DNA from: Ferrimicrobium sp.
GTDB taxonomy: Bacteria; Actinomycetota; Acidimicrobiia; Acidimicrobiales; Acidimicrobiaceae
Assembly: GCA_022690815.1 (NCBI GenBank)
Contig: JALCZJ010000029.1
Coordinates: 1-32,015, forward strand
Reading direction: 5' to 3'
Length of the DNA: 32,015 nucleotides
The notes under the pieces were generated by a model. It saw nothing but the letters and a program-made list of their open reading frames with translations, was not told the DNA's origin and did no database searches. Below are positions 1-22,454 of this stretch, piece after piece. Both the position numbers and the translations under genes were made by a program. Each line of letters begins with the position of its first letter. The stretch's first letter is position 1.

Positions 1-127
1 GTCGGCACTAAGCGTTCTAAATGTAGCGCGGATGCGAGTTCTGCACAAAAGACGAGAACTGCAGAGGACGTTAGAACCCATCCTCTCAACGCTCGGATAC
101 CTCTGGAGAGGTGAACTCCAGCAAATC
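1..127. other. Left-edge sequence outside the IS21 element
   Basis: No gene is supported here. Two small inverted repeats can be seen: agttct/agaact around 38-60, and acctct/agaggt around 110-123. Two of the three minus-strand frames are open through this short piece, but neither reads like the continuation of the IS630-type transposase cut off at the other end of the IS21 element. The sequence therefore does not look like the missing half of that gene. Confidence 0.4.
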
Positions 128-143
128 TGACTTTTCTTATATC

Positions 144-289
144 TCTGGACCAACGATTCGCGTAACTCTGGACCAATGGATCGCTGATCTTTGGACCAGG
201 AGTTCGCGAAACTCTGGACCGCAGATTCGTGCATCTTTGGACCAACGATTCGCGTAACTCTGGACCAGGAGTTCGCGAAACTCTGGACC
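144..289 (+). repeat. Seven 23-bp phased repeats, IS21 left end
   Basis: The core tctggacc (or tttggacc) starts at 144, 167, 190, 213, 236, 259 and 282, exactly 23 bp apart each time. The 23-bp units at 149-171 and 241-263 appear identical, as do the units at 195-217 and 264-286, which suggests part of the array was duplicated as a block. A decayed core (tctaggac) may follow at 312. In IS21 elements, repeats at the ends are transposase binding sites; that role is inferred here from position and from the inverted copies at the right end. Confidence 0.85.
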
Positions 290-333
290 ACCCAGAAGAA
301 GCTGCCGAAACTCTAGGACATCGTTTCCTAGAT

Positions 334-339
334 GGAGGT
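334..339 (+). promoter_or_regulatory. Shine-Dalgarno of istA
   Basis: A ggaggt run lies about 8 nt ahead of the ATG at 348 and fixes the istA start. It lies just downstream of the repeat array, so transposase bound to the array could affect istA expression (inference). Confidence 0.6.
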
Positions 340-347
340 AAACAGAG

Positions 348-1920
348 ATGAAAAACAAGACAAGAAAAGGAAGTTGGACATTGCAACCAGATCAGATTCG
401 AAAAGTTATCGCCTACCTCGAACGACACCCGGATGCCTCAGCTCGCACCATCGAGGCAGCGACTGGAGTATCGCATCAGTCAGTCACGAGACTACGCAAG
501 AAGTTGGCTGAGGTCACCATCACCGAGGAGGACTTGTCAAAGGATTCGGCCCTCCTGGCGGTTCTCTATCCCACGAGGGCTGGGCGCACGAGCACGAAGG
601 TAGCCCCTGACTACGAGGTACTCGTTAAGGAGTTGAGGGATACCCCGCATCTCACCCGAGAGCTCCTTTGGGAAGAGTACTGCCATATCAATGGTGAGAA
701 CTCCTACTCATACTCCGAGTTCTGTCGCAAGCTTGCTCGAGTGGTGGACCAAGGAGAGCTCACCATGTTGTTGGCCCATGAAAAGGGGAGCGCTCTCATG
801 GTCGACTATGCAGGTGATACCGTCCCCATATGGGACCGAGACACTGGGGAGATCGCCCTCTACGCCCAGGTCTTTGTCGCCGCCCTGGCCTACTCGGGCT
901 ATACCTTTAGTGGGGTCTATGAGTCCCAGCGCATCGATGACTTCCTCTTGGCCATCATGGATGCCTTTGAGTTCTTCGGCGGTCTTGGGGCCAAGGTCAT
1001 CCCCGATAATCTCCGGAGTGCGGTTACCAAGCACACCCGTGACGAGCTCATCTACAACGCGACCTTCACCGAGTTCTGCACCCATTATGCAATTGAGCCC
1101 GCGGCTACTCGCGGCGTATCGGCCAAAGGATAAGGCAAAGGCCGAGGGTGCGGTCTACCGGGTTGAGACGAGGATCCTGGCCCGACTCCGTCATGAACGC
1201 TTCTTCAGCGTTGCCGAAGCCAACGAACGCGTCAGAGCCATGCTAGGAGATCTCAACGAGGCTCCCTTTAAGTACCTAGCTGGGTCCAGGGCTACTCGAT
1301 TCGTTGAGGAGCTGCCCTCTTTGAGACCCCTACCCACGAGTCGCTATGAGCTCGCCGAGTTCTTAACCCTCCCCGTTTCACCTGACTATCACTTCATGGT
1401 CCATACCAACCGTTACTCGGTTCCGGTTCGCTTTCGCAACACCAAGGTACGTGTCAAGGTTGGCAAACAGAGCATCGAGGTCTTTAGCGATGGTGAGAGC
1501 ATCGCTATCCATGACCGCGCAGGTGGTGAGAACCAGATCATCACTAATCCAGCTCACCGACCACCTGAGCACCAGGGCTATCTGGAGGCAGAAGAACTGC
1601 TCTACAGTCAAGCCCGTGCCATTGGAGAGAGCACAGAGAACGTCATTCGCTCCGTCGTTGCGTCAACTCCGTTCCGATCGGTTGCTCAAGCATCAGCCAA
1701 GGCACTCCTGCGTCTGTTACGGGCCTATCCACAGGCTGAGGCAGAACTTGCCTGTCACAGAGCCCTCATGATTGGCTCTGCGACTCGAGAGTCCGTAGAG
1801 TCTATCTTGACCAAGGGACTCGCCGACGTCGGACTGGGCGTTGAACCCGAGATGAGCTATGAGCCCCATGCCAACCTACGGGGTCCAGAGGCCTTTCGTA
1901 TTGGAGGTACCGATGAGTAG
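348..1920 (+). pseudogene. istA: IS21 transposase IstA, single frameshift
   Basis: This is the DDE transposase of the IS21 element. The first frame (348-1133) carries an N-terminal helix-turn-helix (about residues 20-50) and the first two catalytic acidic residues, in MVDYAGD and VIPDNLRSA. Reading then shifts +1 near 1112-1115: the first frame ends in VSAKG and stop, while the next frame continues as [19 protein letters not shown] and runs to 1920. The segment after the shift holds the catalytic Glu (KAEGAV) and the C-terminal domain. Removing one G in cgcggcg restores the usual IS21 reading. No slippery heptamer is evident, so a mutation or sequencing error is more likely than programmed frameshifting. 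The stop overlaps the istB start. Confidence 0.85.
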
Positions 1921-2689
1921 GGCCACCAACCTTGAGCACTTGAGCACTCTGCGACTCTCTCATGCCAAGGCCCAGTACCGTGCCCAATTCGAGGATTCCT
2001 CAATCATCGACCTGGACTTTGATGAACGTCTTTGTCGCATCCTTGACTATGAGATCGCGATGCGAGCCAATGCCAGGGTGCAAAGGAGAACCCGAGAGGC
2101 TGGCTTTAGCATGCGTGCAAGCCCTGAGGACTTTGAACTCACCGAAGGACGAGGGCTTACCCGTGAGCGCTATCGCTCACTGGTCTCCCTTGCCTGGTTG
2201 AGTGCTCATCACCACCTCGCCATCACCGGCCCCACTGGGGTGGGCAAGACCTACCTCGGGATCGCCCTTGGGGTGAGTGCGATTCGTGCGGGCTACCTGG
2301 TGCGCTACTACAAGCTCTCCAAGCTCTTAGAGAAGGTAGGGATCGCCCGGGCGGATGGAACCTACCCGTCCTTTGCGGCCATCCTTGCCAGAACCCATCT
2401 ACTCATCCTCGATGACTGGGGGATCTCCCCGATCTCACCACTGGGTTCCAGAGAGATCCTTGATCTCTTAGATGACCGAGGAGAGAACGGTTCACTCATC
2501 ATCTCCTCGCAGTTGCCCGTCTCACAATGGTACGAGAGTCTTGGAGAGCGAACTGTCGCTGATGCCATCATGGATCGCATTGTCCATAACGCGATCCCCG
2601 TCGAACTCAAAGGAGAATCCATGCGTAAACACGGGAGCCAACGAAAGGAGGGGAACGGACTCAAAGAGCCTGGTCCAGAGATAGAGTAA
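1913..2689 (+). CDS. istB: IS21 helper ATPase IstB
   Basis: IstB is the AAA+ ATPase that IS21 elements need alongside IstA to assemble the transposition complex on target DNA. The predicted protein is 258 aa, normal for the family. It has a Walker A motif GPTGVGKT near residue 103, a Walker B LLILDDWG near 165, and downstream ISSQLP and DRIVHN motifs. I start it at the ATG at 1913, which overlaps the istA stop (gATGAgTAG) and suggests translational coupling; an ATG 54 nt upstream is in frame but would add a non-homologous leader inside istA. The innermost right-end repeat (2672-2679) lies inside the last codons of this gene. Confidence 0.92.
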
Positions 2690-2725
2690 CAGGTGGTCCA
2701 TGGTTGCGCGAAACCGTGGTCCAGG
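2672..2725 (-). repeat. Three 23-bp phased repeats, IS21 right end
   Basis: Inverted copies of the left-end core (ggtcca plus variable bases) start at 2672, 2695 and 2718, again exactly 23 bp apart. The outermost copy, read on the minus strand, aligns with the outermost left copy over roughly 30 nt (core plus the ttcgcg block). These form the right terminal inverted repeat of the IS21 element. Confidence 0.8.
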
Positions 2726-2737
2726 GTACGAGAATAG

Positions 2738-3001
2738 CTAGGTGAATCTCTTGATCCACTTTTGCACCGTAAAGGTAGAGATATCCAGTTCATCGGCGAT
2801 ATCACAAAGCCTGACGCCTTCGTTGGCCAAGAGGGCGATCTTTGCTTGCGTCACCTGAGCTGCTGGTGCATTACGTTTGGCGATAAAGGAAGTGAGGAAC
2901 TCTTTCTCCTCATCGCTCAGGGTGACGACATACGTTGGTTTGCGTCCAGTACGCTTCTTGGTCCCTTCGGAATCTCTCGCTCTCGATATCTGCTTGGCCA
3001 T
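2738..3001 (-). pseudogene. IS630-type transposase, N-terminal remnant
   Basis: This 87-aa remnant keeps only the N-terminal DNA-binding domain of an IS630-type transposase. It shows the family pattern VTLSDEEKEFLTSFI, then APAAQVTQAKIALLANEGV, and a helix-turn-helix ending DISTFTVQKWIKRF. The DDE domain is absent because the frame runs into the right end of the IS21 element, which supplies the stop codon at 2738-2740. I use the ATG at 3001 (MAKQISR), preceded by an agagg-like sequence; an upstream TTG is possible. The missing C-terminal half is not recognisable at 1-127, so more than a simple insertion may have happened. Confidence 0.75.
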
Positions 3002-3398
3002 TGTCATTGCCTCTTGCCCCAAGAGAGTAGATCTACAGTGAGGTCAACAGGGGCCAAATCTTGAAAGTTCCTGAATTAGCGCAAACTTACGGCTAGGGAC
3101 ACTATTTGTTCTAGTATCCTGGACCGTTCTTTCCGGCTTGGTGATGTACTAGACGAGATGCGCGGAGAGCGACATGAAGCGGTCTGGCAAGGCGGAGCTA
3201 GAATGATATGGATAACAGCTTCCCGGCTATCATGAACGATATGGGGTGTTTTTGTTAAATAATCGATTCTCACTTGTAAAGAGGTGAGATCGAGATAACG
3301 AGTGCTTGCGACCCTCTTTGAGGAGCTCTTGCAATTTGTGTTTAGCGAGGTGCACGAGGTGAGCTACAGGAGGTCCGCTACAGTGGAGGAGTTGTCAG
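3002..3398. other. Intergenic, no supported gene
   Basis: This stretch probably contains the outer flank of the IS630-type remnant and the upstream region of the SnoaL-like gene. A short minus-strand frame (3076-3273) has no ribosome binding site or recognisable content. I see no tRNA, clear terminator or long repeat. Confidence 0.4.
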
Positions 3399-20690: not shown

Positions 20691-22454
20691 ATGGCGGCGC
20701 GAGCGTCGAGGTCAAGCAATGAGGCTCGAGTCCCGCCGCACAGCATTGAGGCCGAGGACTCGCTCGTTGGGGCGATGCTTCTTTCTCGCGATGCCATTAG
20801 TGAGGCCGTAGAGCTCGTCAGCGAGGATGATTTCTTTCAGCCCTCGCTGCGCCATATCTATGGAGCGTTGTGGCGGCTTTATACCGCGGGTGATCCGACG
20901 GATGTCGTTTCGGTGTCCGATCAGCTCAAACGAGCCGGGGTTCTCGATCAGGTTGGCGGGACCGAGAAGTTACTACTGCTGCAGGCCTCCACGCCAGCAA
21001 TCGCTAGCGCAGCACGCTACGCCCAGATCGTTCGGGATTACTCGCTCCTGCGGAGGTTGATCGCGGCGGCTACCGAGATTGCCGAGCAGGCGTATGCGTC
21101 GCCGAACGACGTTCAAGAGATCGTTGACTTCGCAGAGGCCCGCATCTTTGATGTTGCCAAGGGCAACAATAGTGACAACGCGGTTGTCATTCGCGATGTT
21201 CTGTGGGAAGCCCTTGAAGAGCTCGAGGAACTCTACGCTCAAGGGGGAAGCCAAACAAAGACTACGTCGACTGGCTTTCGGGATCTTGACGAGAAGCTCT
21301 CTGGCCTACATCGATCGAACCTGATCATCGTCGGTGCACGACCTGGCATGGGCAAGACGTCCTTTGCGCTGTCGATGGCATCCAAGGTGGCGGAGAACGC
21401 CCAAGATCCGGTGTTGATCTTCTCGCTGGAGATGAGCCGTGTCGAGATTGGACAACGCCTGCTCGCGGGTGAGGCGCGGGTGGATTCGATGAAGATCCGC
21501 AGCGGTCGGCTCGTGGAGCGGGAGTGGGATCGAATCTCGCACGCCGCTGGAAGGTTGGCAGAGCGCAAGATCTTCATCGATGACGACCCCAATATCACGG
21601 TCCTCGACATTCGCGCTCGTTCCCGAAGGCTGAAGGCAAATGAGGGCCTATCGCTCGTGATGATCGACTACCTCCAGTTGATGTCCTCACGCCGAAATGT
21701 CGAATCACGCCAGGTGGAGGTCTCCGAGATCTCTCGTGGGTTGAAACTGCTGGCTCGTGAACTTGATGTACCCGTGATCGCCCTGTCTCAGCTGTCGCGT
21801 AACCTCGAAAGTCGAAGCGATAAACGTCCACTGTTAGCAGATTTGCGCGAGTCAGGCTGCCTCGCTTGGGATACTCGAGTTCGACTTGGCGACGGGACAA
21901 GCGAGGCGATTGGCATGCTTTGGGCCAAAGGTCGTACTGATTTTACCGTTCTTTCAGCGACGCCGGGTGGAGCCGTCGCTAGCGCGATAGCCAAGCGAGT
22001 GGTGGCGACCGGTGTCAAGGATCTCGTCCGCATTGAATTTGTTGAGGGTGGATACCTGGATGCTACTCCTAACCATCCGGTCGCGACACCTACTGGTTTT
22101 GTTCCAGTCGACCGTCTCCAAGTGGGAGATCATGTCATGGCTGTCGATGCAGATGGGACCCAACTGTTCAACACGGTGGCATCCTTTGAATCTCTTGGCT
22201 CGGAGCTGGTATTCGACATCGAGGTTATGGAGACACATTGCTTCTGGGCCAATGATGCTTTGGTGCACAACTCACTCGAACAGGATGCCGATATTGTCAT
22301 GTTTATCTATCGCGACGAGGCGTATCGGCCTGACAGTCCCGATCGAGGGGTGGCCGAAATCATCATCGCCAAGCATCGTAGCGGCCCCGTTGGGACCGTG
22401 CATCTGGCGTTCATGGAGAACTGGGCGCTCTTCGCCGACATCGCCCAGGGCTAG
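20691..22454 (+). CDS. dnaB: Replicative DNA helicase DnaB with in-frame intein
   Basis: DnaB is the hexameric helicase that unwinds DNA ahead of the replication fork. The precursor is 587 aa: an N-terminal primase-interacting domain (about 15-120), a linker, then the RecA-like motor with Walker A GARPGMGKT (215-223), Walker B VMIDYLQL (323-330) and the LSQLSRNLESR motif (365-375). The motor is interrupted after LADLRESG at residue 389 by an intein (390-527) and resumes as SLEQDADIVMFIYRDEAY. Without the intein the mature helicase is 449 aa, a normal length. Splicing is therefore needed for a functional replicative helicase. The ATG at 20691 has no convincing Shine-Dalgarno and lies 12 nt after rplI, so translation probably depends on the upstream gene. 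Confidence 0.96.
   Translation: MAARASRSSNEARVPPHSIEAEDSLVGAMLLSRDAISEAVELVSEDDFFQPSLRHIYGALWRLYTAGDPTDVVSVSDQLKRAGVLDQVGGTEKLLLLQASTPAIASAARYAQIVRDYSLLRRLIAAATEIAEQAYASPNDVQEIVDFAEARIFDVAKGNNSDNAVVIRDVLWEALEELEELYAQGGSQTKTTSTGFRDLDEKLSGLHRSNLIIVGARPGMGKTSFALSMASKVAENAQDPVLIFSLEMSRVEIGQRLLAGEARVDSMKIRSGRLVEREWDRISHAAGRLAERKIFIDDDPNITVLDIRARSRRLKANEGLSLVMIDYLQLMSSRRNVESRQVEVSEISRGLKLLARELDVPVIALSQLSRNLESRSDKRPLLADLRESGCLAWDTRVRLGDGTSEAIGMLWAKGRTDFTVLSATPGGAVASAIAKRVVATGVKDLVRIEFVEGGYLDATPNHPVATPTGFVPVDRLQVGDHVMAVDADGTQLFNTVASFESLGSELVFDIEVMETHCFWANDALVHNSLEQDADIVMFIYRDEAYRPDSPDRGVAEIIIAKHRSGPVGTVHLAFMENWALFADIAQG
21858..22271 (+). other. DnaB mini-intein (138 codons)
   Basis: The intein starts at C390 (CLAWDTRVRLG, block A) and ends at H526-N527 before S528, giving the standard Cys / His-Asn / Ser splice set. 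Block B is YLDATPNHPV (T459, N461, H462). Block F is VFDIEVMETHCFWAN, and block G is DALVHN. No LAGLIDADG or HNH endonuclease fits in 138 residues, so this is a mini-intein. The insertion point, RESG followed by SLEQDAD, is the one I recall for the Synechocystis and Mycobacterium DnaB inteins. It splices itself out after translation. Confidence 0.93.

Follow-up and report, generated by a model that had tools for sequence, protein, structure and literature searches.

An insertion sequence (IS) of the IS21 family, 2613 bp long and carrying istA and istB, occupies positions 128-2740 (+) of the window, by which we mean the whole 32,015-nt stretch of DNA that was analysed. Its features are listed below.

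128-2740, +: IS21-family insertion sequence; left terminus TGACTTTTC, right terminus (other strand) TAGCTATTC
128-142, +: left terminal segment TGACTTTTCTTATAT, preceding the first site
143-303, +: left array of seven 23-bp units, starting at 143, 166, 189, 212, 235, 258 and 281
146-175, +: 30-bp tract with an exact copy four units on (units 1 and 5)
192-220, +: 29-bp tract with an exact copy three units on (units 3 and 6)
304-347, +: leader of istA, containing a Shine-Dalgarno-like GGAGG; the relative in genome G312 matches it at 43 of 44 bases
348-1133, +: istA, first part, cut short by a frameshift; NF033546, E = 1.4e-40, profile positions 5-224
1093-1920, +: istA, second part, read in a different frame; carries the remainder of the DDE domain and Mu-transpos_C_2 (PF22483)
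1859-2689, +: istB, AAA+ helper ATPase; NF038214, 221.2 bits (cut-off 200); PF01695, E = 2.4e-56
2658-2726, -: right array of three inverted 23-bp units, R1 2726-2704, R2 2703-2681 and R3 2680-2658
2727-2740, -: right terminal segment TAGCTATTCTCGTA

The istA gene of the window copy is broken by a one-base frameshift near position 1100. Because the gene is split, both of its pieces fell under the NF033546 cut-off of 160 bits when scored singly. Positions 214-294 of this profile match the second part at 1093-1338 (E = 4e-17), and the reading frame of that part formally opens at 691. The first part additionally gave an rve match (E = 1.5e-5) which is under the Pfam cut-off. Programmed frameshifting of istA was considered and is disfavoured, since the first part of istA in a relative (L177, described below) reads in one frame beyond the same place. 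The frameshift is more likely to be a mutation or a sequencing error. With istA frameshifted, the window copy is probably inactive at present.

Assignment to the IS21 family, as made in the original prediction, is borne out by the IstA and IstB family matches. The element encodes an IstA-type DDE transposase (NF033546 matched in two frames) with an IstB AAA+ helper ATPase directly downstream, and each end has multiple direct repeats that are inverted between the ends (seven left and three right, at 23 bp). TG...CA termini are the rule for the whole family; here the left TG is present and the right end is TA, as it also is in all eight of the other right ends of the subfamily that were found. 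The transferred strands of IS21 are described as ending in CA (PMC11208146). Since the proteins and the repeats place the element, we keep it in IS21 despite the TA, which is a minor departure, and regard it with this reservation as a variant member of the family.

The left terminus is common to the stretches L003, L177, L178 and L185, and the right terminus, of the TAG-N-TATTCTC type, is common to eight other right ends. A right end at 2744 with the target-site duplication AATC was considered and rejected. The terminus is placed at 2740 because the eight other right ends agree and because 2741 is precisely where the right flank starts to be homologous to contigs C6, C9 and C11. Target-site duplications of 5 bp are reported for numerous IS21 members (PMC11208146); none is visible at the window copy, where the flanks are AAATC and GGTGA. 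Window positions 1-127 are an exact 127-mer of contig C12, which runs into other DNA precisely at the left border of the IS. This is probably an assembly branch, and it may perhaps represent two states in the culture (IS-free and IS-bearing) or a rearranged insertion. As C12 has the left flank in a second context, the window copy may be rearranged.

Both ends carry evenly phased two-box units

The original prediction counted seven left cores and three inverted right ones, all 23 bp apart. Our recount agrees: all six left and both right steps between units are 23 bp, with no irregular spacing, and the left core positions given there fall one base after the unit starts found here (144 versus 143, and so on). 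The inverted right cores start at 2672, 2695 and 2718, and the third right core overlaps the 3' end of istB (stop codon 2687-2689). Each unit consists of two boxes, C-TGGACCA and then TTCG about one helical turn further in. Left units 1-6 have both boxes, the second being imperfect in units 2 and 4, and unit 7 has the first box only. At the right end, the second box of R2 is imperfect and R3 is limited to the first box.

To describe the unit, columns were counted over 25 outer units, 21 of them distinct, from five arrays (window L1-6 and R1-2, L177 L1-6, L214 R1-6 and L213 R1-5); the units of L178, L181, L184, L185, L002 and L003 and all innermost or cut units were omitted. Columns 1, 4-9 and 16 are invariant, and the TGGACC core is thus the same in all 21 distinct units. 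Columns 10, 15, 17 and 18 are strong at 1.4-1.7 bits and columns 11-14 weak at 0.02-0.59 bits. The invariance of the core could reflect recent copying between units instead of selection.

A search of the 2.54-Mb assembly for exact TGGACC-N17-TGGACC gave nine matches, of which six lie in the left end of the window IS, two in its right end and one in a left-end remnant on contig C2. When up to two mismatches were allowed, there were 138 + 151 matches in the genome versus 150 + 169 for a reversed-pattern control (289 versus 319). As the mismatched pattern is no commoner than its reversed control, it is the exactness that carries the signal.

Cryo-EM work on IS5376 (PMC10122671) describes a pair of conserved stretches in every repeat, separated by about 10 bp, with a distance of 23 bp from repeat to repeat; the two stretches are bound by the two helix-turn-helix domains of one IstA subunit. 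By analogy, the two-box unit looks as would be expected for two such domains of a single IstA subunit, and the units fit the known two-box IstA site, for which a 23-bp repeat has already been published (PMC10122671). At 10.5 bp per turn, a step of 23 bp makes 2.19 helical turns by arithmetic, so that each unit is rotated by about 69 degrees relative to the last. The suggestion that bound proteins would lie on nearly the same face of the helix therefore holds for neighbouring units and fails beyond them as the drift of about 69 degrees per unit adds up. Structural work has read the 23-bp spacing as favouring supercoiled wrapping (PMC10122671).

Seven left units are the highest count among the elements surveyed

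To place these counts, 69 IS21 elements were scored in the same way for phased repeats with steps of 20-26 bp. These were the window element and 68 of the 80 loci from an IstB similarity search; 70 of the 80 had a long upstream reading frame and 68 had zones of sufficient length. The window element scored 7 + 3, and its left count is the highest of the 69. The next left counts were 6 (L049) and 5 (L040 and L059), and the highest right count was 6 (L109). A left count of 4 was reached by 12 of the 69 elements, of 5 by two and of 6 by one, while left counts in resampled controls came up to 4 in 10 of 414 and to 5 in 2 of 414; left counts of 2-3 are at the level of noise. Totals of at least six phased sites were seen in 32 of the 69 elements (the window included) versus 6 of the 414 controls. 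With a stricter count, the next best left end had 5. A chain was obtained for 23 of another 30 IstA loci from the phylum, while four had none and three were too short; the best chain was 6 in G043 (steps of 24-25 bp; about five by eye) and the next 4, a count that controls for this survey reached in 8 of 135.

Phased arrays are thus a trait of the family, and seven is the top of the observed range, continuous with 5 and 6. The original prediction was right to call seven left repeats unusual, and its statement that IS21 ends usually have two or three was slightly low. As long arrays occur elsewhere (left 6 in L049, right 6 in L109), the expansion is a matter of degree. Within an open-licence subset of the IS21 literature, which included portions of PMC10122671, PMC11208146 and PMC3281130 and lay outside ISfinder, no longer arrays were named; this is short of proof that none exist.

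Comparison with described systems places the element close to IS5376 and IS21, with which it shares the istA-istB order and two-box direct repeats 23 bp apart at both ends (PMC10122671). IS5376 is described with two repeats per end (L1/L2 and R1/R2), and the family usually with at least two (PMC10122671), in contrast to 7 + 3 in the window IS and at least seven at a right end of one of its relatives; the 5'-TA of the right terminus is a further difference. A copy of ISAs29 on an Aeromonas plasmid (L209) has an istA that is 36.7% identical over 94% of the query piece. As in the window IS, its repeated core lies in phase upstream of istA, although in about four left copies (by eye) versus seven. 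The sites at the ends of Tn7 are unevenly spaced. Several transposase sites per end are likewise found in phage Mu and Tn7 (MuA and TnsB), and the L1-L2 spacer of Mu is longer, giving an uneven spacing as opposed to the uniform 23 bp here (PMC10122671).

Relatives of the element have expanded and shuffled arrays

A DNA search with the left end matched seven of 397 genomes of the order, the source genome included. A complete left array was among the matches, in an element on contig C46 of G312 (L177), a different species of the same genus. The element is 89% identical to the window over 1009 bp, with 664 of 733 bases of istA identical, and is cut within istA near a serine recombinase gene. Seven left units at 23 bp adjoin its istA. 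The original prediction had allowed that other copies might show only the usual two or three repeats and make the window copy a one-off. This is contradicted by the seven units of G312:C46, though other copies have about three. The unit order differs between the two arrays: window unit 1 is nearest to unit 3 of G312:C46 and window unit 3 to its units 2 and 5, whereas the positions of units 6 and 7 are the same in both. Terminus and array together are identical at 144 of 176 positions versus 43 of 44 in the leader, and we conclude from this difference that shuffling makes the array change more quickly than the sequence around it.

The other left ends are shorter or incomplete. There are at least four units in G312:C41 (contig end), four in the left-truncated G310:C102, three in G311:C4, and two before truncation in both G311:C3 and C2 of the source genome. 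A remnant on C45 of the source genome, 82% identical to the window IS, has four left units before its truncation; it aligns with the window only through units 1-4, in the same order, and three of its four cores are mutated, so that it serves as a control for decay. Right-end cores of the relatives were counted by eye in unit listings, and chains on the opposite strand over the arrays, which are shadow matches to the inverted motif, were excluded. The right end of G312:C8 has seven cores, with the contig beginning inside the seventh unit, and resembles window R1, four extra units, R2 and R3. That of G312:C17 has five cores and a cut sixth; R1 and an R2-like unit keep their places between the window and G312. 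G311:C70 has two clear cores and a decayed one; on G310:C111 two precede the end of the contig, and a single core is present in each of four short solo right ends. Seven units are not required, since a left end in G311 has three and the right ends here and in G311 have about three.

Exact duplications vary from one well-read left array to another. The window has one of 30 bp at a distance of four units and one of 29 bp at three, L177 one of 56 bp at three units and L178 one of 25 bp at two. The claim that two units of the window array are duplicated exactly is valid from core to core, where the 30-bp and 29-bp tracts are exact; the base preceding the core differs in both pairs (units 1/5 and 3/6). 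These patterns fit arrays that grow, shrink and shuffle in whole 23-bp units with the phase kept. Such changes may proceed via unequal exchange, slippage or conversion between units. Recent block growth thus stands as a process, with the exact tracts recent or recently homogenised. It does not account for the whole array: units 1-4 stand in the same order in the C45 remnant (82% identical), which dates at least four units to before the split from it.

Possible roles of the extra sites

We propose, from comparison of sequences, that the element represents a small IS21 subfamily with expanded arrays of predicted IstA sites, up to seven per end, that turn over; we give this reading a probability of about 0.72. 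IstA would bind each 23-bp unit, and only the two outermost sites per end would be needed for the synaptic tetramer. In IS5376, the IstA tetramer uses two sites per end and two complete repeats are needed for integration (PMC10122671). Sites 3-7, located before istA, would hold further IstA over the istA leader, and this extra IstA would damp istA expression or help loading. The binding of IstA occludes promoter regions of the IS5376 ends (PMC10122671), and PMC11208146 suggests that multiple terminal repeats serve, among other roles, to hold transposase in an autoinhibited state until the helper has arrived. A putative function of the extra sites has in our estimate just under an even chance. 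A scan of 60-420 for sigma-70-like promoters found 0 with 0.2 expected; this null result lends no support to such a role, which may nonetheless exist. The array could further be a tunable dial, where the number of units would set how much IstA is held over the leader, the cooperativity of loading and the rate of transposition, and would evolve fast by exchange between units, an extension that we consider doubtful.

A serious rival accepts that the units are IstA sites and denies any function to the extra ones. The two outermost sites would do all the work, and the others would be by-products of slippage or unequal exchange whose number drifts. The variable copy number (left 7, 7 and 3; right about 3, about 3, at least 7 and at least 5), the exact tracts of 25-56 bp that differ between arrays, and the requirement of IS5376 for only two repeats per end in vitro (PMC10122671) are all as such drift would have it. 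However, the core is invariant in 21 distinct units while the spacers vary, the truncated C45 remnant lost three of its four cores, and both complete left arrays adjoining istA have seven units despite their shuffled order. Weighing these, we grant neutral expansion a substantial chance, if clearly short of even.

The remaining alternatives are much weaker. The exact 30- and 29-bp tracts inside the array, and the alignment of the 82% C45 remnant through units 1-4 only, might point to a recent amplification in the window copy alone, but G312:C46, with 664 of 733 istA bases identical, has seven units as well and right ends are expanded in G312; unless the G312 copies arose wholly independently, these contradict a one-off event, which we consider improbable. 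That a short-read assembly mis-counted the tandem array is suggested by contigs L178, L213 and L214, which end inside arrays, and by the exact 127-mer shared with C12, which looks like a k = 127 assembly branch. The array is 161 bp long with units that differ from one another, however, and seven units were assembled separately in two genomes in different order, which makes such an artefact very improbable. As the IstA sites are predicted from sequence, the units could also be sites of a host regulator or an unrelated repeat, but they recur in inverted orientation at the opposite end of the element, and in the rest of the assembly exact phased pairs occur only in a remnant of the window IS; we give this reading scarcely any credence.

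On the proposed reading of expanded IstA-site arrays, what is new here is the expanded and fast-changing end arrays; the IS21 kind of element is known. The natural ends with about three to seven evenly phased units are a ready-made copy-number series, and the subfamily shows concerted change of transposon ends at the resolution of single units. The role of additional terminal repeats in the related Tn7 is stated as an open question in PMC10122671.

Solo ends, distant relatives and neighbouring features

Short solo ends matching the window IS over 33-57 bp were seen in five genomes of the genus (L003 1501-1557 on C2, L185 and L215-L218); their outer terminus is intact, and they have no more than one or two cores. 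They may be deletion footprints or one-ended events. The solo end on C2 is 98% identical to the window IS and lies inside a reading frame that we take by eye to be an IS1634-like transposase; a Pfam scan of L003:1000-1479 gave no match.

Contigs C53, C37, C40 and C4 of the source genome hold four further, distant istB relatives (29-48% identity). An IstA scan of a collection of genome contigs confirmed no relative (44 stretches matched a pattern), and an IstB scan of viral contigs gave one partial match. No IstA or IstB match at E = 1e-3 was obtained on the stretches with 22-bp arrays in G301 (L186) and G214 (L187) or with a left-like end of two units in G377 (L188), which were excluded for this reason. 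On G301:C30 (L186, about 1940-2028) a similar terminus accompanies four units of 22 bp, of which three are identical, in a 4500-bp stretch without an IstA or IstB match. In G377, IstB was matched on another stretch (L189), which has three phased units at a right end.

Elsewhere in the window, at 20691-22454, a dnaB replicative helicase gene is interrupted by a small intein. Two profile scans of the intein gave no homing-endonuclease family at E = 0.001; TIGR01445 is just above its cut-off and PF14890 below. A truncated HTH transposase-like gene (2741-3043, -; PF13384, E = 1.7e-7), presumably IS630-like, abuts the right end of the IS21 element. Related stretches lie on C6 and at the contig starts of C9 and C11, each with a first base that corresponds to 2741.
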